Part shown: positions 3,340-20,030 of the stretch, piece after piece
Numbering within the stretch: position 1 is the stretch's first letter
How the letters are laid out: the number at the start of each line of letters is the position of its first letter
Source of the DNA: a virus
Direction: 5' to 3' (one strand)
IMG/VR virus record: IMGVR_UViG_3300018080_004965
Coordinates: 1 to 20,135 of that record
DNA length: 20,135 bases
Notes under the pieces: model-generated
Databases searched by the model: none
The model's input: only the letters and a program-made list of their open reading frames with translations
Told to the model about the DNA's origin: nothing
Made by a program: the position numbers and the translations under genes

Positions 3340-4668
3340 TTATAATATTTTAGACGCCTCTGTGGCCAACCTACTTCTTTCCCCCTTAACTAGAGTGATA
3401 TGGCCCGCTATTGGTGAGCCTCTAAATGCTGAGGCTACATGGGTTAAACCATTATTTATAGCATCGAGATGTGGACTATCTGTTTGTTCTATATCTCCCG
3501 TTAGAACAATTTTGGTTCCATATCCGGCGCGGGTTAGTACTGTTTTTATTTCGTTTTTTGATAAATTTTGGGCTTCATCTATAATCATATAAGTGTTTGG
3601 AATGCTTCTGCCTCTAATATATGTAATAGGTTCTAGATATATCTTATCCGCATATTGACCTAACCTATCTCTCCAGTCTTCTTTGAACGATCCTTTTCCT
3701 TTTGTCTTTTTCTTATAGGATGTTAGAAAATCTAGACTATCAATAATTGCTTCCATCCATGGTTCCAGCTTTTCTGCGAGATTGCCCGGAAGATAACCTA
3801 ACTCATTGCCTACGGCTTGCATTGGCCTGTATATTATAATCTTATTATATGTTTTTTGATTAATTAATAGTTCTAAACCGGCAGCAACTGCCAGAATTGA
3901 CTTGCCGGTACCTGCACGTCCAATCAGTGAAACTAACGATACATCAGGATCTAACAACAAATTAGCGGCAAATTCTTGTTCTTTATTCTTGCTATTTATA
4001 CTCCACAATTCACTACCGCGCACCACATGTATTTCATTTTTTATACGTCTGCCCAGTGTGGTTCCATTTCCATATTCATCAGCAAAATGAACACATTCAT
4101 TGGGCAATATATTTTTTAATATTTCATTTTCGTCACAACTAATTATTTTATCCTTGCATAATTTTCCGCTGAGTTCTGGACTAGTTATTGTAACGATACC
4201 TGAATATAATCTATTGGCCCATTTAGAGCTTTTTACAGTTTCTTTTTCATAATCTTGAGAACAAATATCAAACGATTGCGCTCGTATTCTTAAGTTAATA
4301 TCTTTACTAACCAATACGATTTGATTTGGTTTATATGTTGTTTTCAAATTGTATGCGCAGGAAAGTATTTGGTTGTCCCCATATTCTGAGTCACCGAACA
4401 TAGATGCATTGCCAGATTTGGTGTCAACTTTAATATTAATATTGTTATCTATTTGAATTCCCTCATGAATTTTGCCCAGCGCACAAATTTCATCAAGAAT
4501 TCTGATAAAGGTTCTAGCGTTCTTTCCGGCATCGCTAGCTGTTCTTTTAATTTTGTCTAATTCATTTAATACATAAACATGTAAAATAATATCAGAATCT
4601 GGAAATTTTTCAAAACAATATGGGTCATAGGCTACTACGGATGTGTCTAAAACGTATATTTTTTTCAT
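3340..4668 (-). CDS. phoH: PhoH family protein with N-terminal PIN domain (PhoH2-like)
   Basis: The 442-residue product starts MKKIYVLDTS, where PIN domains usually begin. PIN-domain acidic positions are Asp8, Glu36, Asp98 (GDNQ) and Asp123 (SKDINLR). The C-terminal half is a PhoH ATPase with Walker A GRAGTGKS at 250-257, a YRPMQ motif near 280, GYLPGNLAEKLEPW at 291-304, and Walker B MIIDEAQN at 361-368. PIN-PhoH fusions (PhoH2/YlaK type) are described as RNA helicase/ribonucleases. In phages PhoH is widespread but its role is unsettled. An in-frame TTG at 4713 would add 15 residues. The best Shine-Dalgarno (AGGAGG, 4735-4740) lies too far from either start, so the start is uncertain. It is the only minus-strand gene here and has its own promoter. 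It meets the terminase stop to stop with no gap. Confidence 0.92.
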   Translation of the reverse strand: MKKIYVLDTSVVAYDPYCFEKFPDSDIILHVYVLNELDKIKRTASDAGKNARTFIRILDEICALGKIHEGIQIDNNINIKVDTKSGNASMFGDSEYGDNQILSCAYNLKTTYKPNQIVLVSKDINLRIRAQSFDICSQDYEKETVKSSKWANRLYSGIVTITSPELSGKLCKDKIISCDENEILKNILPNECVHFADEYGNGTTLGRRIKNEIHVVRGSELWSINSKNKEQEFAANLLLDPDVSLVSLIGRAGTGKSILAVAAGLELLINQKTYNKIIIYRPMQAVGNELGYLPGNLAEKLEPWMEAIIDSLDFLTSYKKKTKGKGSFKEDWRDRLGQYADKIYLEPITYIRGRSIPNTYMIIDEAQNLSKNEIKTVLTRAGYGTKIVLTGDIEQTDSPHLDAINNGLTHVASAFRGSPIAGHITLVKGERSRLATEASKIL

Positions 4669-4802
4669 ATGTGTGTTCTGCTTTGTTTTTGTTTCTATTT
4701 GATAATTTGACAAATAATTATAAACTGTTTTTAGCCTCCTATAATCTCATATGTTATATATTGTTTGTGAGTAGATTTTGTTTTGATAAAGTATCTCATT
4801 TC

Positions 4803-11724: not shown

Positions 11725-12468
11725 ATGCCTGAGAGATTTTCAGAAGTTAGTAAGAATATTTATCGGGGCGGCAAACCCAGCTCAGAGGATTTGTCTATAT
11801 TGGCGAATGTATTTGGCGTAAATCGAATTATTAGTTTAGATGGTTATATTGGTGAAGAAATTGCGCCATATGTAAAAAAGTATGGAATGGAGCACATTGT
11901 AATACCCATTGGTGGTTTAGAAAGCATTAAGGCATTAAAATTCCTGAGAAATAATATAGTATCATTATTAACAGATAATCAACCAGTATACATACATTGT
12001 AGACACGGTAGTGATAGAACTGGTACGGCCATTGCTTTATATAGGATATTTAATGATAATTGGAATTTTAATGATGCTATTCGCGAAGCTAAGAAGTTTG
12101 GTTTTGGTAATAAGGTAGATTTTGGTACGGAGGGTTTGTATTTAAACATTATTGGAGGCAAGCCAGACTCTAATGGTGTTGAGGACGATATGGTTACTCA
12201 AATGCGTGATTGGTTTAATATGGGAGATGTACCGCCGGCATTTACTCCGCAACAATCATTTGCTCCCAGATTTGATGTAGAAAGAGCCTCTCCCGAACCA
12301 CCTACGGCAGCTAGACAGAATAGAAGGCAAAGTATAAGAGATATTTTAGAGAATATGTCCGGTGATGGTGAATCAGAGAATGTTCCTGAAATAGGTTTGT
12401 ATGACAATTATGGCGGTGTTCGCGGAGCTGGTCCTGTGGTGAATCATCAAGGATTTATGAATATATAA
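11725..12468 (+). CDS. Dual-specificity-type protein phosphatase with C-terminal extension
   Basis: Residues 1-145 form a tyrosine/dual-specificity phosphatase-like domain. It has YRGGKP near the N-terminus, the strand VNRIISLDG (32-40), and the signature P-loop HCRHGSDRTG (91-100), with nucleophile Cys92 and phosphate-binding Arg98 at CX5R spacing. AIREAKKFGFG follows (118-128). No aspartate occupies the usual general-acid region before the P-loop (about 55-70 reads EHIVIPIGGLESIK), as in some atypical DSPs that act on non-protein substrates such as inositol pyrophosphates, so the substrate is open. Residues 150-247 are a Pro/Ser/Arg/Gly-rich, probably disordered extension with the basic segment ARQNRRQSIRD, absent from simple DSPs. 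It is embedded in the head-gene operon one base after the previous stop, which suggests it acts in or on the virion. Confidence 0.85.
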   Translation: MPERFSEVSKNIYRGGKPSSEDLSILANVFGVNRIISLDGYIGEEIAPYVKKYGMEHIVIPIGGLESIKALKFLRNNIVSLLTDNQPVYIHCRHGSDRTGTAIALYRIFNDNWNFNDAIREAKKFGFGNKVDFGTEGLYLNIIGGKPDSNGVEDDMVTQMRDWFNMGDVPPAFTPQQSFAPRFDVERASPEPPTAARQNRRQSIRDILENMSGDGESENVPEIGLYDNYGGVRGAGPVVNHQGFMNI

Positions 12469-13426: not shown

Positions 13427-16400
13427 ATGGCATTTATTAAACGAGGAGAAGCTGTAACAATTACTACTGAGTCTATTCAATCAGTAGATAATGTTGTGTC
13501 AGATCCAAAAATCTTAGCACAATTCGAGAAGGTTGCATCTGATTTAAAGATGATTGCGCCAAAGGCGAAGGATTTTCTATATTTTTCCGCTGTAATGATG
13601 CATGCTGCTGAGGCATCTATTCTTGATGAGAATGGGGCCGTTCGTAAAGATGCGCAGGGAAATAATATTACCTGTGGTTGGGAAAAAAGTGGAGATTCTT
13701 GGCGATGGGCGTGTTCCGATTCTTCTATTTTACCATATAAAAATTCTAATAATGATATATTTCCAGAAGAAGAATTACTTAAAGCATATAAAAAGTGGAT
13801 AGGCCGTCCACTATGTTTAGACCACCAGTCTAGCTCTGTTGATATGGTCCGTGGTGTTATTGTTGATACTTATTACGACTATCCTAATAAAAGAGTTGTT
13901 GCTTTATGTGCTTTGGATAAGGTTAGTTATCCAGAATTAGCTAGAAAAGTTGCTACAGGCGTTTCGGCATCTGTTTCTATGGGTACTGCAGTCGGTAGGG
14001 CAATTTGTACTGAATGTGGTAATGTAGCAAGAACTGAAGGTGAGTTTTGCGAGCATATGCGGAGTAAATCTTGCTATGGTGAGATTAATGTTGATCTTAA
14101 CCCGATAGAGTTGTCTATTGTGGTTAATGGAGCGGATCCAAAAGCTAAGATTAGGCATATTGTAGCTGCGGCAGAAAGTATTGCGCAGTATGTAAGCTCT
14201 AAAGAAGAACAGATTTCAAAAATGGCAGATATGCATGAAATGGTAGATCCTGATGAAGTCAAGGATATTACCGAGGAGTTAGAGGGCGTTCTTAATAAAT
14301 TGAAAGATCTTCAAGAAACTGCTAAACGAGTAGAGGAAGAGGAAGAGGCAGAAGAAGAACATGAAGAACATGAAGAGCATGAAGTGTCTTCAGATGAGGA
14401 TGAAGAAGATGCCAATGATGAAAAATGCGCCTCAGGATCAGGTGAGGATATTAAAAAACTCGCTGGTGTTTTAGATAATATTTACAAAGGTTTAAACAAA
14501 TTGCAAGATGACGTTGATCAGTTGTCACAAAACAAAAAAGAGGATATTGATAAAATGACTAAAAAGGAAGCTTATTTTCAAGGTGGTGGAGGACCTAATG
14601 AGCCCGGACCTAGCCCGCGTTATCCAATAGAAGATGCTGAATCTATTCGGGATCTTAAGGACAAGCAGATGGTTGGGCAGATGGATACCGGCCCGGTAGA
14701 AGGGATGCATCCTGGTCCTGAAAGTACAGATAAATCCGAAGAAGAGCGTAAGCGCGAACTACAGCGCTTGGCAGAGGAGCGCGAGCAGCGTTCTTTGAAG
14801 CGCCAAGCTGTGGTGGCTAAGGCTAAAGAGGCTTTTCAGAATCGCAAGGAAGCTTATTTCCAAGGTGGTGGTGGGCCTAATGAGCCGACTCCCGGAAAGC
14901 CTACTTACGAGAAAGAGGATTATGCAAAGACCCGGGATGGAGAAGATAAGCAAATGGTAGGAGAGAAGCCATTTCCTGGTGTAGGCGATGTCGAAGGTCT
15001 CTATGGTGACGATGAGAAGAAAAAGCAGATGTTGGCTCGTGCTAAACTAACTGCTAAGTTCATCAAAGCCGCAGATGTTGAAAAGGGTGAAGATGATAAG
15101 GCAAATAGTCGTTGGCAAGTATATTCTGACAATAAGCTTATTTTAAGCAGTACTGTCAGTGATATTACCAATGGCAAGGTTGATGCATTGTATGATTTTG
15201 TAGCAACAGAGAAATTTGGCCGTAAAATTTTGGATACTATCCGAACAGAAGGCTTTGACAAAGCTCAAACCATTTTGAAGGGCGCTCAAGCACCTGAACT
15301 TCCTACTCCTCCACCAGAAGAAGCTGAGCTTCCTGAAGGTGCTGAAGAAGCTGTCGAAATGGATGAAGGTTTTGCAGGTGATGTTCGTGAGCAGATTCCA
15401 GACTTGATGGAAGATGTGGAGAATGCATTTGCAGATCTTCGCAATGCTGTCAATACCCTTCTTGAAGGTGGTGATGAGCTAAGTTCTTTTGAAGAGCTAG
15501 AAGAGGAAGAGGTTGAGGAAGGTGAACCTACTTTTGCTTCTCTGGTTGAGATGCAGAAAAAACTCAGTGCAGAGTTAGTTGAGGAAATGAATAAGACCGC
15601 TGGTGTCCTCGAAGAACAAGCAGAAGAACTTCGACTTGTTAAGCATATTTATGATAATAAAGAGAAGTTAGCTGATAAAGACATTGATCAATTCAATAAG
15701 CTAGCAGCAAATACTTGCAGCGATACTAAGGAAACATTAGCAGATCATTATAAGCTGTTGGAGTCATTCGTGAAATATGCACATGGAACAGAAGAATTAG
15801 TAAAGAAGGCCGAAAAACATCCTCTGCAAGAAGTGTATGAGAAAAATACTAAGGATCAGAAGCCTGTTGACAGGGAGTCTAAGATCAAGCACGATCCATC
15901 TGCCGGATCTGGGCCATATAACCCAGCAGAAGAGGCAGAAGAGAAAGATCCAAAAGGAGAGTCCACGACTGGCCGTGAAGTAAAGAGGCAAAAAGCTAAA
16001 GCTGATGATGCTGACGATTCCAACGATGCCGCTCTAGACGATCTTCTTGAGATGCTGGAAGGCGGAGAAGAGGCTCCAGAGGCACCTGAAGATGCTAATC
16101 CCGCAGCTATAGAAGCTGAGGTTCCGCTATCAGGTGGTGGCACCGCAACAATAACTGGCGATCCTGTTGATGTAGGCAAGGCAGTATCGAGTGCAGAGGA
16201 CAAGCCAGATCTTTCCACTAAGGAAGGTCGAGCAGCTTATCGTGAAGAGCTAGAAAAGTTGGCCCAGACCGGTCTATCTTTCAATCCAGTTCTTGATGAG
16301 GCACATCCCCAAGGCGGAACTACTACTCAGTTAGATGTTCCTCCAGAGGGAGAGCTTGCCAAGACTGAGACTCTTGAAGAGGCTCATGATAAGGTTATGG

Positions 16401-16936
16401 ATGTAGCTACTGCACCTCCTAAGGTTCGTAAGATGGCTGAAGATATTCAGAAGATGGTAGTAGAAGGCAAGATTGATCCTGAGAAGGATTTTGATGGTCT
16501 AATCGCTGCTGGTCTGGATGCTGATGCTGTTGCTTACTGGAAGAAGTTCTTTGGAGAGGCTGGGGCTGAGGGATCACAGTTTGCTTCAGAGCTAGTTAAG
16601 GAGCATGCTAAGGCTGCTAACGAAGCGGATAAGGAAAAGTATCAGGTCAAGATTGCTAGAGCATATGAACTTGCATATGATATGGTAGGTCGCGGCATGA
16701 TTCAGAATACACGTCCGGCTGTGAAGGAGCAAGTAGAAGAGCTTATGTCATTTAATGATGAGGCATTTGAGAGCATGAAGCGATGGGTAGATAGGCAACC
16801 ATCAATTCAGAAAAATGCATCACTTCCTCAGGTAGGCTTGATGAGCACTGGTGATTCTATTGCATTGCCGGCTCCTGAGGCTGCACAAAATGAGTGGGCT
16901 GAGCTAAATAAGATATGGGCAGGCAAGAAGCTATAA
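13427..16936 (+). CDS. Prohead maturation protease fused to long scaffold-like region
   Basis: The ATG follows GGAGAG (13418-13423). The 1169-residue product has an N-terminal protease domain (about 40-245). Candidate catalytic residues are His133 in PLCLDH (128-133) and Ser184 in SASVSMG (180-186), the His-Ser arrangement of HK97/herpesvirus-type prohead proteases. A Cys/His cluster (ICTECGN 193-199, FCEH 207-210, Cys216) looks like an inserted zinc site, and NPIELSIVVNGADPKA (225-240) is a typical family ending. Residues 300-335 are nearly all Glu/Asp/His. Two copies of a Gly-rich unit follow (380-430, 474-528), then a small folded domain (about 561-620) and long acidic helical regions with low-complexity linkers to the end. 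Scaffold is inferred from composition and the fusion. Codon use changes markedly from about 14600 onward. Confidence 0.85.
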   Translation: MAFIKRGEAVTITTESIQSVDNVVSDPKILAQFEKVASDLKMIAPKAKDFLYFSAVMMHAAEASILDENGAVRKDAQGNNITCGWEKSGDSWRWACSDSSILPYKNSNNDIFPEEELLKAYKKWIGRPLCLDHQSSSVDMVRGVIVDTYYDYPNKRVVALCALDKVSYPELARKVATGVSASVSMGTAVGRAICTECGNVARTEGEFCEHMRSKSCYGEINVDLNPIELSIVVNGADPKAKIRHIVAAAESIAQYVSSKEEQISKMADMHEMVDPDEVKDITEELEGVLNKLKDLQETAKRVEEEEEAEEEHEEHEEHEVSSDEDEEDANDEKCASGSGEDIKKLAGVLDNIYKGLNKLQDDVDQLSQNKKEDIDKMTKKEAYFQGGGGPNEPGPSPRYPIEDAESIRDLKDKQMVGQMDTGPVEGMHPGPESTDKSEEERKRELQRLAEEREQRSLKRQAVVAKAKEAFQNRKEAYFQGGGGPNEPTPGKPTYEKEDYAKTRDGEDKQMVGEKPFPGVGDVEGLYGDDEKKKQMLARAKLTAKFIKAADVEKGEDDKANSRWQVYSDNKLILSSTVSDITNGKVDALYDFVATEKFGRKILDTIRTEGFDKAQTILKGAQAPELPTPPPEEAELPEGAEEAVEMDEGFAGDVREQIPDLMEDVENAFADLRNAVNTLLEGGDELSSFEELEEEEVEEGEPTFASLVEMQKKLSAELVEEMNKTAGVLEEQAEELRLVKHIYDNKEKLADKDIDQFNKLAANTCSDTKETLADHYKLLESFVKYAHGTEELVKKAEKHPLQEVYEKNTKDQKPVDRESKIKHDPSAGSGPYNPAEEAEEKDPKGESTTGREVKRQKAKADDADDSNDAALDDLLEMLEGGEEAPEAPEDANPAAIEAEVPLSGGGTATITGDPVDVGKAVSSAEDKPDLSTKEGRAAYREELEKLAQTGLSFNPVLDEAHPQGGTTTQLDVPPEGELAKTETLEEAHDKVMDVATAPPKVRKMAEDIQKMVVEGKIDPEKDFDGLIAAGLDADAVAYWKKFFGEAGAEGSQFASELVKEHAKAANEADKEKYQVKIARAYELAYDMVGRGMIQNTRPAVKEQVEELMSFNDEAFESMKRWVDRQPSIQKNASLPQVGLMSTGDSIALPAPEAAQNEWAELNKIWAGKKL
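14540..14557 (+). promoter_or_regulatory. Candidate internal translation start for scaffold-only product
   Basis: GAGGA (14540-14544) lies 10 bases before an in-frame ATG at 14555 (Met377 of the 1169-residue protein), directly before the first KEAYFQGGGG unit. Initiation here would give a 793-residue protein lacking the protease domain. The precedent is lambda, where Nu3 scaffold is made from an internal start inside gene C. The spacing is at the long end, so this is an inference. Confidence 0.4.
14564..14962 (+). repeat. Two-copy coding repeat KEAYFQGGGGPNEP...DKQMVG
   Basis: The protease/scaffold protein contains KEAYFQGGGGPNEP at residues 380-393 and again at 474-487, each followed about 20 residues later by DKQMVG (412-417 and 507-512) and then VEGM/VEGL. 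The units cover 14564-14677 and 14846-14962. Their DNA is similar but not identical, with mostly third-position changes in the first part, which indicates an old duplication kept by selection on the protein. Confidence 0.85.
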
Positions 16937-17019: not shown

Positions 17020-17352
17020 ATGAGTTGCAAAAATTCAGGCGTAGCAGATGACTTAGCTCAGTCTATGAGTGAGGTATTAGCTGAAGAGGGTTATCAGAAT
17101 ATTTTTAAAAAGCCCGAAGTAAAGAAAGTGGCATCAAATGAAATGCCAGAAGATAAGACCGAAACTAATCCTGTATCAGATGCATTTAGTAAGCTTTTAG
17201 AGGTATCCGCCGTTCTAGACGAAATGGGTCTAACCAAGACTGCTGCAAGTGTATTAGAGGCTGCTGAGGAGTTTGTGTCTGAGATGTCTGAAAAGGATCT
17301 CGATGCGGCTGCCGAACAAGCCGAAGCTGAAATTGTAGTATCTGAAGACTAA
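17020..17352 (+). CDS. Small acidic protein, member 1 of a local paralogous family
   Basis: ATG 17020 follows AAGGA (17010-17014). The 110-residue product has an N-terminal helix, then NIFKKPEVKKVA (27-38), closely matched by NMFYKKAEVKDIV in the next gene. A helical hairpin follows, with LLEVSAVLDEMGLTKTAASV at 59-78, and a Glu/Ala-rich acidic tail. It lacks membrane segments, a signal peptide and catalytic motifs. Related features in the three following genes indicate local duplication and divergence. It lies just after the scaffold hairpin and 13 bases before the next gene, so it is probably a low- to moderate-level head-assembly or internal virion protein. The function is unknown. Confidence 0.78.
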   Translation: MSCKNSGVADDLAQSMSEVLAEEGYQNIFKKPEVKKVASNEMPEDKTETNPVSDAFSKLLEVSAVLDEMGLTKTAASVLEAAEEFVSEMSEKDLDAAAEQAEAEIVVSED

Positions 17353-17365
17353 GTCAAGGAAAATC

Positions 17366-18097
17366 ATGAAAAAAAAGAATATTAGTGAATCGGTTGCTAT
17401 AAATATGGATAAAATTATAAATAGCGATTCTCATACGAATATGTTCTACAAAAAGGCTGAAGTAAAAGATATTGTAGAAGAAATACCAGATCAATTGACT
17501 AATATTTTTGATGTTCTGGTAAATGTTTCGGCAGAATTAGATAATCATGGTTTGGAGAAAAGCTCAGAAAAAGTATTAAATTCTGTTTCTACATTAATGA
17601 TAGAGGCGGCAGCCAGGGCATTATATGAGGGGGTGGGCTTACAAGAATCATCTATGATACCTTTGATTGAGGCAATTAAAAATAACCCCTCATTAACAGC
17701 TTATATTCTTAGTCGACTTTCTGATAATGCCGTGCAGGAATTATATAAAGACAAAGATGCTGCCGCAGCTTTAAGCGCTTTTAGGCGAGAACTGTTGGAG
17801 CGGGAGGATATCGAGACCATTCCAAAGTCTGAGGATGAGCGTCTTCAGGAAATGGAAGATGATGCTGTGGCGCGTGAGGTGGCAGAGCTTGCAGGTTCTG
17901 AACCGTTACCGAAAGAAGAAGAGGAGATTGAAGTTATTTTAGAGGGGTTAGAAGATGAGCCCCCTGAAGAGATAACTGGTGAGTCATTGTTGCGCTCTGA
18001 TGAACCAGAAGAAGAAGGAGAATATATTGAGATTTCTCCGGTAGAACCAAGAGAAGAGGAAGGCCCAGATGCTCCGGAGTATGAAGATGAAGAATAA
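17366..18097 (+). CDS. Acidic protein, member 2 of the local paralogous family
   Basis: ATG 17366 follows AAGGA (17356-17360) by 5 bases. The 243-residue product begins with the family N-terminus MKKKNISESVAINMDKI and NMFYKKAEVKDIV (25-37). The hairpin FDVLVNVSAELDNHGLEKSS is at 48-67. An extra helical domain covers about 83-145 (containing NPSLTAYILSRLSDNAVQEL), and the tail (150-243) is rich in Glu, Asp and Pro and probably disordered. The acidic tail resembles phage scaffold or internal proteins. The stop overlaps the next start region by 11 bases. No enzymatic motif is seen and the function is unknown. Confidence 0.8.
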   Translation: MKKKNISESVAINMDKIINSDSHTNMFYKKAEVKDIVEEIPDQLTNIFDVLVNVSAELDNHGLEKSSEKVLNSVSTLMIEAAARALYEGVGLQESSMIPLIEAIKNNPSLTAYILSRLSDNAVQELYKDKDAAAALSAFRRELLEREDIETIPKSEDERLQEMEDDAVAREVAELAGSEPLPKEEEEIEVILEGLEDEPPEEITGESLLRSDEPEEEGEYIEISPVEPREEEGPDAPEYEDEE

Positions 18098-18794
18098 TGA
18101 CTATGATATTGCTGCTTCTATGGCTAAAAATTTGGCAGCTGATAAAATAGAAGAAAATACTAATGCAGATAAATTATCTGAGGCTCTAGATTGTTTGAAT
18201 AAGTCCGCGGAATTATTTGAAGATTCAAATAATGATGCTTGTGCATTTGTTGTTACTAATCTTTTAGAAAAGATTTCTACCATTGTATTTACGAAAGAAG
18301 AGGATATACCAGAAGAAGAAGAATATGATATAAAATGGAAAACCAATGAGGAATATGAAATAGAAGATGATATAGATTTTATGTTTGATTTTAGTTTTTC
18401 TGATCCCAGTGAGATGAAAAAGAATTTAATATCCGGTATGAAAAGTTTGAAGGCAGCGATAGATAAAAAAAAGAACAAAACATCTCAAGAAGAACAAAGA
18501 GAATTTGATTATATAATTGAAATTATTGGTAACATAGCAAATACAATGCAAGAAAATGGTGATAATTACTGGGGTGATAAATCATTGAAGTCTTTTTTGC
18601 CAGGAAATGGTTGTTTAAAAACTGATTTTAATTGGATATTTAGAACTTTATATAAATTAGATCCTGGGAAATTTGCGGAATATGGCGTTCCAGATAATTC
18701 TCCAAAGGAAAAAGCGGTGAAGCCAGAAACAGAAGAAATTATTGTTGACGATATACCAGAAGAGTTAGAAGAAGCAAAGACAAGTGACGAATAA
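18087..18794 (+). CDS. Acidic protein, member 3 of the local paralogous family
   Basis: I chose ATG 18087 because GGAG (18076-18079) lies 7 bases upstream and the resulting N-terminus, MKNNDYDIAASMAKNLAADK, lines up with the starts of members 1 and 2; ATGs at 18069 and 18081 are alternatives. The 235-residue product has a diverged hairpin, LDCLNKSAELFEDSNNDACA (34-53), and an acidic stretch with Phe/Met-rich IDFMFDFSFSDP (96-107). A second helical domain covers about 108-200 and contains YWGDKSLKSFLPGNGC (161-176) and NWIFRTLYKLDPGKF. A Glu-rich tail ends it. It overlaps the previous gene by 11 bases, which points to translational coupling. Function unknown. Confidence 0.75.
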   Translation: MKNNDYDIAASMAKNLAADKIEENTNADKLSEALDCLNKSAELFEDSNNDACAFVVTNLLEKISTIVFTKEEDIPEEEEYDIKWKTNEEYEIEDDIDFMFDFSFSDPSEMKKNLISGMKSLKAAIDKKKNKTSQEEQREFDYIIEIIGNIANTMQENGDNYWGDKSLKSFLPGNGCLKTDFNWIFRTLYKLDPGKFAEYGVPDNSPKEKAVKPETEEIIVDDIPEELEEAKTSDE

Positions 18795-18814
18795 ATATAT
18801 AAAGAGATAAGTAT

Positions 18815-19156
18815 ATGGATTTTTTTAATAAAATATCAGAGGATGAATTTTTATTGGCATTTCAGGATGAACTAGATAAGCTTCATTCTCAGGCAGAGGA
18901 TTTAAATAAAAGTCGAAAAAGTAAAGCGTTTGAACTATTAAGAAGGGCAGCTGATATATTCAATGATGTTGGGTTAAAAAAAGAGGCGGAAGCAGTTGCG
19001 TTAGTTTATAATATTAAAGACGATCCTGCTACAAAAGATTTAACAAGTGAAGAGATGGTAAAGTATTTGAAGGAGAGGGGTTGGCCATTTAGGGCTGATT
19101 CCGACGATGAAGAAATAGAAGTTGAAGTTGAGGATGCTTGTGACAGAGAAAAGTAG
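18815..19156 (+). CDS. Small acidic protein, probable member 4 of the local family
   Basis: The 113-residue product has helices at 8-30, then FELLRRAADIFNDVGLKKEA (39-58), which matches the hairpin pattern of members 1-3 (leucine pair, Ala/Ser, Gly-Leu-x-Lys, Ala). A compact C-terminal motif follows, SEEMVKYLKERGWPFRADSD (78-97), and an acidic end. The N-terminal family block is not recognisable, so membership is less certain. The Shine-Dalgarno is weak (AGAG near 18803). It is the only gene in the window ending in TAG. The stop lies about 50 bases before a strong terminator, so it closes the long rightward transcription unit. Function unknown. Confidence 0.75.
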   Translation: MDFFNKISEDEFLLAFQDELDKLHSQAEDLNKSRKSKAFELLRRAADIFNDVGLKKEAEAVALVYNIKDDPATKDLTSEEMVKYLKERGWPFRADSDDEEIEVEVEDACDREK

Positions 19157-19205: not shown

Positions 19206-19242
19206 AAAGCCGGTCATTTTTAAACGAATGACCGGCTTTTTT
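19206..19242 (+). terminator. Strong intrinsic terminator closing the rightward unit
   Basis: AAAGCCGGTCATT (19206-19218) pairs perfectly with AATGACCGGCTTT (19227-19239) over an 8-base loop, giving a 13-base-pair stem with a GC-rich core. The T run continues to 19242, six T in all from 19237. It separates the four-gene acidic family from the decoration-protein gene, which must therefore have its own promoter or depend on read-through. Confidence 0.93.
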
Positions 19243-19331: not shown

Positions 19332-20030
19332 ATGTTTCGTCTTGTGCAAACGGGAAATGCCCTTCCCTATTCGTTCCCTGTAGATCCCAGTGCAGAATTT
19401 GAGCCTGGAATGGTAGCGCAACTAAATCTTCATGGAAATCAAGTGGTTTGTGGGGTAAGTGATGGATCGGCTCCGTTGGGTATTATTGATGATGTAAAAA
19501 AGAATGCATTTTCCGCTGTATCTATTGATGAGGTTGTAATTGCTCCGGCTACTGGTGTTCCTGGGCCCGGAGGGCAGCTTGTAACGCCCGTAGATATTAA
19601 GGTCGAATTGCGCAACCCTAATGTGGCTGCCAATTCATTTATATCTAATCCTGTAGATGTAGAGCTTATACCGCGAAATGGAGTTATTACCTATTTGGCT
19701 GGAACTCCGTTAAATTTTAGTCAAACTGGAGGAAGCACACCAGATTCTATTAGGACTGTGGTGAGTTATTCCTATCAGATTCCGAACGTACCTGGTGATG
19801 ATTCGACTATGGCCTCTGGGCGCATTACAGTATGGTTTATGAGAATGATTGCTATAACCAATATGTTTGAAACAAATCAGAGATACCCATTGAACGCCCC
19901 ACTTTTCGTTAATGATAGTGGGTTATTGACCACCAGACAGATTGGAGCTAGCGACGAATATCCTGCTGTAGGTTTTGTAACGGCTCCGCCAACAAGCGTT
20001 CATGATTCATTAGAATTTATTTGGTTTTAA
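19332..20030 (+). CDS. Probable head decoration / virion structural protein
   Basis: ATG 19332 follows AAGGA (19321-19325) by 6 bases. The 232-residue product is beta-rich with few charges, quite unlike the acidic helical proteins before it. Residues 20-60 (FEPGMVAQLNLHGNQVVCGV, then SDGSAPLGIIDDVKKNAF) look like small phage surface proteins in which a polypeptide sets a pGMV..l strand and a GIIDD turn. A Pro/Gly-rich loop follows (75-83), then long beta segments, ending LEFIWF. No signal peptide or catalytic motif is seen. It sits alone after a strong terminator, as highly expressed capsid genes often do. Decoration or capsid-stabilising function is inferred from fold impression and position. 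It is too short and lacks the features expected of a full-size major capsid protein. Confidence 0.6.
   Translation: MFRLVQTGNALPYSFPVDPSAEFEPGMVAQLNLHGNQVVCGVSDGSAPLGIIDDVKKNAFSAVSIDEVVIAPATGVPGPGGQLVTPVDIKVELRNPNVAANSFISNPVDVELIPRNGVITYLAGTPLNFSQTGGSTPDSIRTVVSYSYQIPNVPGDDSTMASGRITVWFMRMIAITNMFETNQRYPLNAPLFVNDSGLLTTRQIGASDEYPAVGFVTAPPTSVHDSLEFIWF

Follow-up and report, generated by a model that had tools for sequence, protein, structure and literature searches.

Four consecutive small genes, here called m1 to m4, follow a prohead protease gene in a 20,135-base linear IMG/VR virus record, and they raise the question of whether they constitute a single protein family and what such a family may do in the phage head. 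This record, at its full length, is the stretch of DNA analyzed in this work and is referred to as the window. An earlier note on the same sequence had described a tandem set of four acidic genes sharing a helical hairpin, perhaps a head-internal or scaffold-partner system that diversified in place; we followed up this proposal by profile comparisons, structure prediction, a survey of related phage loci and motif statistics.

Gene organization of the window

The gene encoding the protease is preceded by genes for a large terminase, PhoH/PIN (on the reverse strand) and a portal protein, and by several head-region genes (Table 1). The protease matches the PHROG head maturation protease (3.6e-15) and, over residues 35-252, shares 33% identity with gp19 of phage G; together, the window portal and protease are each about 33% identical to gp14 and gp19 of phage G. 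The scaffold region contains duplicated KEAYFQGGGGPNEP blocks (approximately residues 380-395 and 475-490), each opened by a K-x-A site. As for the phosphatase gene located among the head genes, a similar open reading frame (ORF) is present at the same place in a related locus (L148, 5089).

The cassette formed by m1 to m4 is bounded by a UUCG hairpin in front, attenuator-like and followed by just three U after its stem, and by a strong intrinsic terminator behind. The mechanical ORF call starts m3 at position 18069; however, 18087 is the more likely start, with a better ribosome site (GGAG at 18076-18079), giving a protein that begins MKNNDYDIAASM... The earlier note had placed the set between scaffold and capsid-surface genes. 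The upstream side of this description holds, in the form of a protease and scaffold fusion, whereas the downstream gene is not a demonstrated capsid-surface gene: it had no match in Pfam or PHROG, and its assignment as a gp26-like decoration protein was rejected, as phage G gp26 gave no match to it. In the relatives, a different, decoration-like gene sits directly before the capsid gene.

Table 1. Features of the window, with the evidence for each
Feature	Position	Strand	Length	Details and evidence
PIN-PhoH gene	3340-4713	-		Lies in the packaging block, flanked by terminase and portal
Phosphatase gene, tyrosine/dual-specificity-like	11725-12468			HCRHGSDRTG; PF03162, 4e-13
Prohead protease (about residues 1-260) and long scaffold-like region, one gene	13427-16936	+	1169 aa	
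RNA hairpin, UUCG loop	16974-16995	+		Between protease gene and m1; fold -16.7 kcal/mol, z -3.4
m1	17020-17352	+	110 aa	ORF, AlphaFold2, profiles
m2	17366-18097	+	243 aa	ORF; window-free m1/m2-type profile, 58 bits
m3	18087-18794	+		ORF; window-free m3-type profile, 60 bits
m4, last family gene	18815-19156	+	113 aa	AlphaFold2; window-free profile, 76 bits
Intrinsic terminator	19206-19239	+		Directly 3' of m4; 14-pair stem then T run; -21.1 kcal/mol, z -8.8
Conserved gene, other edge of the cassette	19332-20030	+	232 aa	56 related ORFs in the loci

Sequence and predicted structure of the four proteins

An iterated profile grown from m1 through its relatives picked up all four window members (E 5e-19, 3e-13, 7e-11 and 3e-9). 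Because iteration can drift, profiles were rebuilt without any window sequence, and every member was scored against 2000 composition shuffles of itself. With the window-free m1/m2-type profile, m1 obtained 61 bits and m2 58 bits, which bears out the N-terminal block and hairpin previously reported as common to both; within the window alone these two proteins display 32% identity over about 90 residues. The m3-type profile gave 60 bits for m3 and 24 bits for m4, and the m4-type profile 76 bits for m4 and 35 bits for m3. At the level of sequence profiles, m1/m2 and m3/m4 are confirmed as two solid pairs within one family, and all four ORFs of the proposed tandem set belong to it.

The link between the two pairs, as seen in the same profiles, is significant but weaker, and is carried mainly by m1 and by the profile-profile comparisons. 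With both m3/m4-type profiles m1 reached 15-16 bits, above 2000 of 2000 composition shuffles, and the scores of m2 with the m4-type profile and of m4 with the m1/m2-type profile were marginal (matched by 5 and 7 of 2000 shuffles, respectively). Neither m2 with the m3-type profile nor m3 with the m1/m2-type profile was significant in this window-free test, and these two proteins reach the opposite subtype only indirectly. Thus, for m3, to which a diverged form of the hairpin had been attributed, the grouping with m4 is clear but the direct similarity to the m1/m2 type did not reach significance. Profile-profile comparison, which had been suggested as a check, yielded E 4.5e-16 between the m3 and m4 types and 1.9e-6 and 2.4e-5 across the pairs; each alignment spanned about 70 columns and kept both the N-terminal helix and hairpin in register. 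The reversed-profile controls gave E 0.15-0.56 (0.15-0.2 across pairs). Column-shuffle controls were mostly near 1, but one of 20 for the m4 type versus the m3 type gave E 2.7e-24; this was treated as an alignment artefact, and weight was placed on the reversed and per-protein controls.

It would be very improbable, on these data, that m1 to m4 are four unrelated acidic helical proteins resembling each other by chance or composition. Such a reading could appeal to the weak pairwise similarity inside the window and to the two direct scores that fell short of significance; nevertheless, it is contradicted by the window-free profiles with 2000 shuffles each, by the reversed and shuffled controls, and by the exclusive location of the family in about 60 loci (see below), on which grounds we consider it largely refuted already and rejected it.

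Scans of PHROG, Pfam and NCBIfam returned only weak, inconsistent matches for m1 to m4 and no family describing these proteins, in agreement with the earlier statement that no known family was recognized, and m2 used alone as a query against viral contigs found zero relatives. A gene of about 370 aa located behind the 230-aa gene of related loci (L064, 16422-17585, and equivalents) carries a similar N-terminal helix and a hairpin of the form LRxSGFxKxAxxLE (LRASGFDKHAADLE); its profile link to the family was not significant (0.02-0.25) and its membership is not claimed.

The family proteins have in common an N-terminal helix and a hairpin of the LxxxAxxLDxxGLxKxA type, in register, followed by a middle and a tail that differ greatly among members and among phages, as had been proposed for the second regions of the four window proteins. 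In the m1/m2 type, the N-terminal helix has the form SxxxxVAxxMDxxLxSxExxxLF, followed by K-x-A-[S/Q/A], a variable and often low-complexity linker with Cys/His clusters in some members, the hairpin LLTASAALDSxGMEKSAxxSLKLASLVVEAK, and an acidic or Lys-rich tail. In the m3/m4 type, the helix is MFKxxSFExEIxxSMEKxL and the hairpin A-DYLNxAAEIFDxAGMxxEAxxIT, after which there is from nothing up to about 280 residues more. Accordingly, m1 consists of N-terminal helices (residues 6-29), KKVAS (35-39), a linker, the hairpin (51-68 and 72 onwards) and an acidic tail; m2 has an N-terminal block and hairpin like those of m1, with FYKKA at residues 27-31, then a different helical region and an acidic tail; m3 has the helix and hairpin of its type, an unmatched second region and an acidic tail; and m4 has the N-terminal helix, the hairpin (turn at 52-54), the LTSEEMVKYLKERGWPFRADSDDEE motif and an acidic tail. 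The sequence LTSEKMVKNLKxHGxxFNAADD was found in 26 distinct family proteins (strict SEKM..NL...G pattern), mostly in the last family gene. All four window members are acidic (pI 4.1-4.5), as first described, but acidity is not a trait of the family, since the tails of m1/m2-type relatives are often Lys-rich, with a median net charge of -1.

AlphaFold2 models of the single proteins, of modest confidence (pLDDT 66-68, pTM 0.31-0.36), predict helices at residues 6-21, 23-29, 51-68 and 72-109 of m1 and at 4-51, 55-66 and 78-88 of m4. In both models an N-terminal helix is accompanied by a helix-turn-helix that turns at the conserved Gly, which supports the common hairpin proposed from the sequence. 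Structure searches with the predicted models gave no significant match.

Location and copy number in related phages

Approximately 120 loci were gathered through their portal and protease genes, and 62 of these contained both flanking genes, namely a protease and scaffold gene of about 1100-1300 residues and the conserved gene of about 230 aa. The family members lie between the two, three of them in 36 loci, two in 20, four in 5 and one in a single locus, where individual counts may be off by one as gene calls were mechanical; outside this interval, on the protease side or beyond the 230-aa gene, the 62 loci contained no family member. Further, when six records of 350-459 kb were searched with three family profiles, all clear matches fell at this locus, and one weak match elsewhere (E 8e-4) was to the low-complexity tail of a profile. 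In the relatives, the major capsid protein is a homologue of phage G gp27 (54-56% identity), present in 7 of 9 relatives' records; its gene lies about 8-9 kb beyond the cassette on the downstream side, which places the cassette between the protease and the capsid protein. The window ends before the expected position of this gene. The family is co-conserved with the protease, scaffold and capsid genes of these phages.

On the protease tree, copy number changed at least 11 times among 53 loci, in a clustered but not clade-wise manner, and thus family copies have probably been repeatedly gained and lost. The four-gene set of the window occurs in the same order in two other loci (L049 and L051). 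These findings support a single family, diversified in place and specific to the head-assembly locus, as the earlier note had anticipated. By contrast, three profiles detected no member of the hairpin family in the whole 497 kb genome of phage G; given that this phage encodes a related protease and capsid protein, heads of this type do not depend on the family. A search of bacterial genomes with the window protease found no match and hence pointed to no host.

Other insertions were observed in the same regions. GIY-YIG-like ORFs are inserted directly after the 230-aa gene in two loci (L093, 15888-16805; L066, 16623-17480), and in L134 (G006) the major capsid gene is in two parts with a homing-endonuclease-like ORF between them, possibly an intron or an intein.

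A candidate protease motif and the proposed role

A K.A pattern is found within residues 25-50, just after the N-terminal helix, in 58 of 65 m1/m2-type members, against 20.6 expected (maximum 31 in 500 shuffles), while the swapped patterns A.K, E.A and K.S occur there in 21, 7 and 19 members, respectively. Preceded by a hydrophobic residue, as [LIVMFY]-x-K-x-A, the motif is enriched 2-4-fold in the head proteins of these phages and not in tail or non-structural proteins. The window proteins contain 28 instances of [LIVMFY]-x-K-x-A-[SQADEKNT] versus 6.4 expected, 13 versus 3.7 when the family and the scaffold are left aside, and zero in the terminase and PhoH; the protease and scaffold protein has 13 [LIVMFY]-x-K-x-A sites. 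Across loci, enrichment was 4.1-fold in the scaffold region (after residue 260, 69 homologues), 3.3-fold in 134 family proteins and 2.3-fold in 518 other, upstream head-region genes, values partly inflated by related sequences, as the shuffles control for composition and not for helix periodicity or shared ancestry; residue-swapped controls ranged from 0.64 to 1.23 (A.K, E.A and K.S near or below 1, R.A 1.2-fold). In a 452-kb relative the motif was enriched 3.3-fold in head genes and 0.65-fold in tail genes, in the non-structural genes of two relatives 0.97-fold, and in phage G 2.4-2.7-fold in head genes and 1.14-fold elsewhere; residue-swapped controls behaved similarly in this comparison. 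Several scaffold sites, for example those at residues 618, 793 and 944 of the window protein (kept in 55, 68 and 69 of 69 homologues), are conserved while their neighbors vary, and seven major capsid proteins bear an LVKYAS-like sequence at about residues 22-27, within an N-terminal extension absent from the phage G protein.

For calibration, the same test was applied to T4, whose protease gp21 recognizes [LI]-x-E (PMC9026906): this published motif was recovered in the core (2.4-3.3-fold, z above 5) but not in the tail (about 1.2-fold), and K-x-A displayed no significant excess. Judging from these sequence patterns, [LIVMFY]-x-K-x-A is probably the recognition motif of the prohead protease, with Ala at P1. 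We found no earlier description of it in the literature searched, the coverage of which was incomplete, so that a prior description is possible.

With these elements, we consider it fairly probable that m1 to m4 belong to the prohead core, as internal head proteins of a phage G-related lineage of megaphages, and that their N-terminal helix would be removed by the prohead protease; accordingly, the head-internal or scaffold-partner role first proposed is partly supported, being the reading that best fits the genomic context and the protease-motif evidence. Each member would enter the assembling head by means of its N-terminal amphipathic helix and helical hairpin, which may dock on the scaffold or on one another. 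The protease would then cut after [hydrophobic]-x-K-x-A, just behind the N-terminal helix in m1/m2-type members and in other places also where the second helix of the hairpin begins, so that the targeting segment would be released as scaffold and core are degraded. The diversified part would be the variable middle and tail, acting either as core filler that determines the size or charge of the head, or as internal cargo, and the set may have arisen by duplication in place and be carried as a cassette. More tentatively, and with rather less than even confidence, we suggest a general scheme for phage-G-like megaphages, in which the prohead protease would cut after [hydrophobic]-x-K-x-A instead of x-x-E, and quickly diversifying internal proteins would be loaded by a shared helix-plus-hairpin tag docked on the protease-scaffold fusion, a modular parallel to the targeting peptides of T4.

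The role proposed for m1 to m4 follows the analogy of T4, in which short N-terminal targeting peptides, later removed by the protease, bring core and internal proteins together with the scaffold (PMC9026906, PMC5694885); in the internal proteins these peptides are 10-19 residues long (PMC9026906). Like T4 gp67, gp68 and IPI-III, the members of the family described here would be small multi-copy proteins incorporated into the core along with the protease and the scaffold, and gp67 combines a short helical part with an extremely acidic tail, a design comparable to that of the window members. On the other hand, the predicted motif is K-x-A here and L/I-x-E in T4, and several paralogues sharing one hairpin form a single cassette here. 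No significant sequence similarity to gp67 or gp68 was detected; homology to gp67 was rejected, as Pfam found no PF17634 (GP67) match in m1 to m4 and gp67 scored no better than its own shuffles with the family profiles. Head paralogues with varying copy number also occur in other giant phages: families A (PF12699) and B of SPN3US/phiKZ resemble the window family in this respect, with 2 and about 20 members in the SPN3US families and 2-7 members per phage for PF12699 (PMC5694885), which leaves unsupported the earlier suggestion that multiplied head genes, such as four in a row, are exceptional. A Pfam scan to E 1 found no PF12699 match in m1 to m4. The SPN3US propeptides are mostly over 100 residues long and are cut at A-x-E (PMC10052503). 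The closest head module is that of phage G (gp14 portal, gp19 protease, gp20, gp21 and gp27 capsid protein), with portal, protease and capsid protein homologous to those of this lineage; its gp20 is a small protein directly behind the protease with LKKTA near the N-terminus and a charged tail, and its protease gene, unlike that of the window, is not fused to a long scaffold region. The freshwater bS21 phages (PMC9723584) are named as a further comparison system.

Two other roles have to be weighed against a prohead-core function. The variable regions may be effectors that, as with T4 IPI-III/Alt or the ejection proteins of SPN3US, are kept in the mature head once the N-terminal helix is lost and reach the host together with the DNA, a role that we regard as unlikely though worth keeping in mind. 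A variable middle and tail beside a conserved loading part would suit such proteins, as would the changing copy number on the protease tree, and the internal proteins of SPN3US and T4 likewise form head paralogues or bear targeting propeptides. Moreover, a DUF5661 domain lies in the variable region of one family protein (L063, 8747-9382; E 4.2e-11), with a weak match in a member of a different slot (L068, 14434-15222), and the variable regions of three others (L066, 14786-15703; L083, 8050-8871; L051, 14175-15212) contain CMCSMCMDADD repeats or metallothionein-like Cys runs that are possibly metal-binding; it is due to DUF5661 and these Cys-rich repeats that internal cargo stays a rival. Nonetheless, the variable part is in many cases a low-complexity run, either acidic or rich in Lys/Asp/Ser, or is missing, as in members of 70-80 aa with little beyond helix and hairpin, so that core filler fits better than an effector.

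Somewhat less likely still, the proteins may serve as scaffold partners or assembly chaperones before or while the head forms, without ever being incorporated or processed, in which case K-x-A would be a helix-packing feature of head proteins and not a protease site. The conserved part is indeed a small helical hairpin, and K-x-A recurs inside it, where cleavage would destroy the conserved fold. Against this, enrichment of the motif is equally strong in the scaffold and clear in unrelated head genes, tail and non-structural proteins show background levels, and T4 behaves alike with its own known protease motif.

Since head paralogue families of variable copy number are known in giant phages, the present case is of a kind already known; what is new here is the family itself, its arrangement as a cassette that follows a protease-scaffold fusion, and the motif predicted for the protease. 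This likely internal-head family marks a wide group of uncultured megaphages. A concrete predicted motif for the head protease would allow processed head proteins and targeting peptides to be predicted from sequence only, with no need of a cultured host and, if the variable parts are cargo, the cassette would be a natural place to seek proteins injected at infection.
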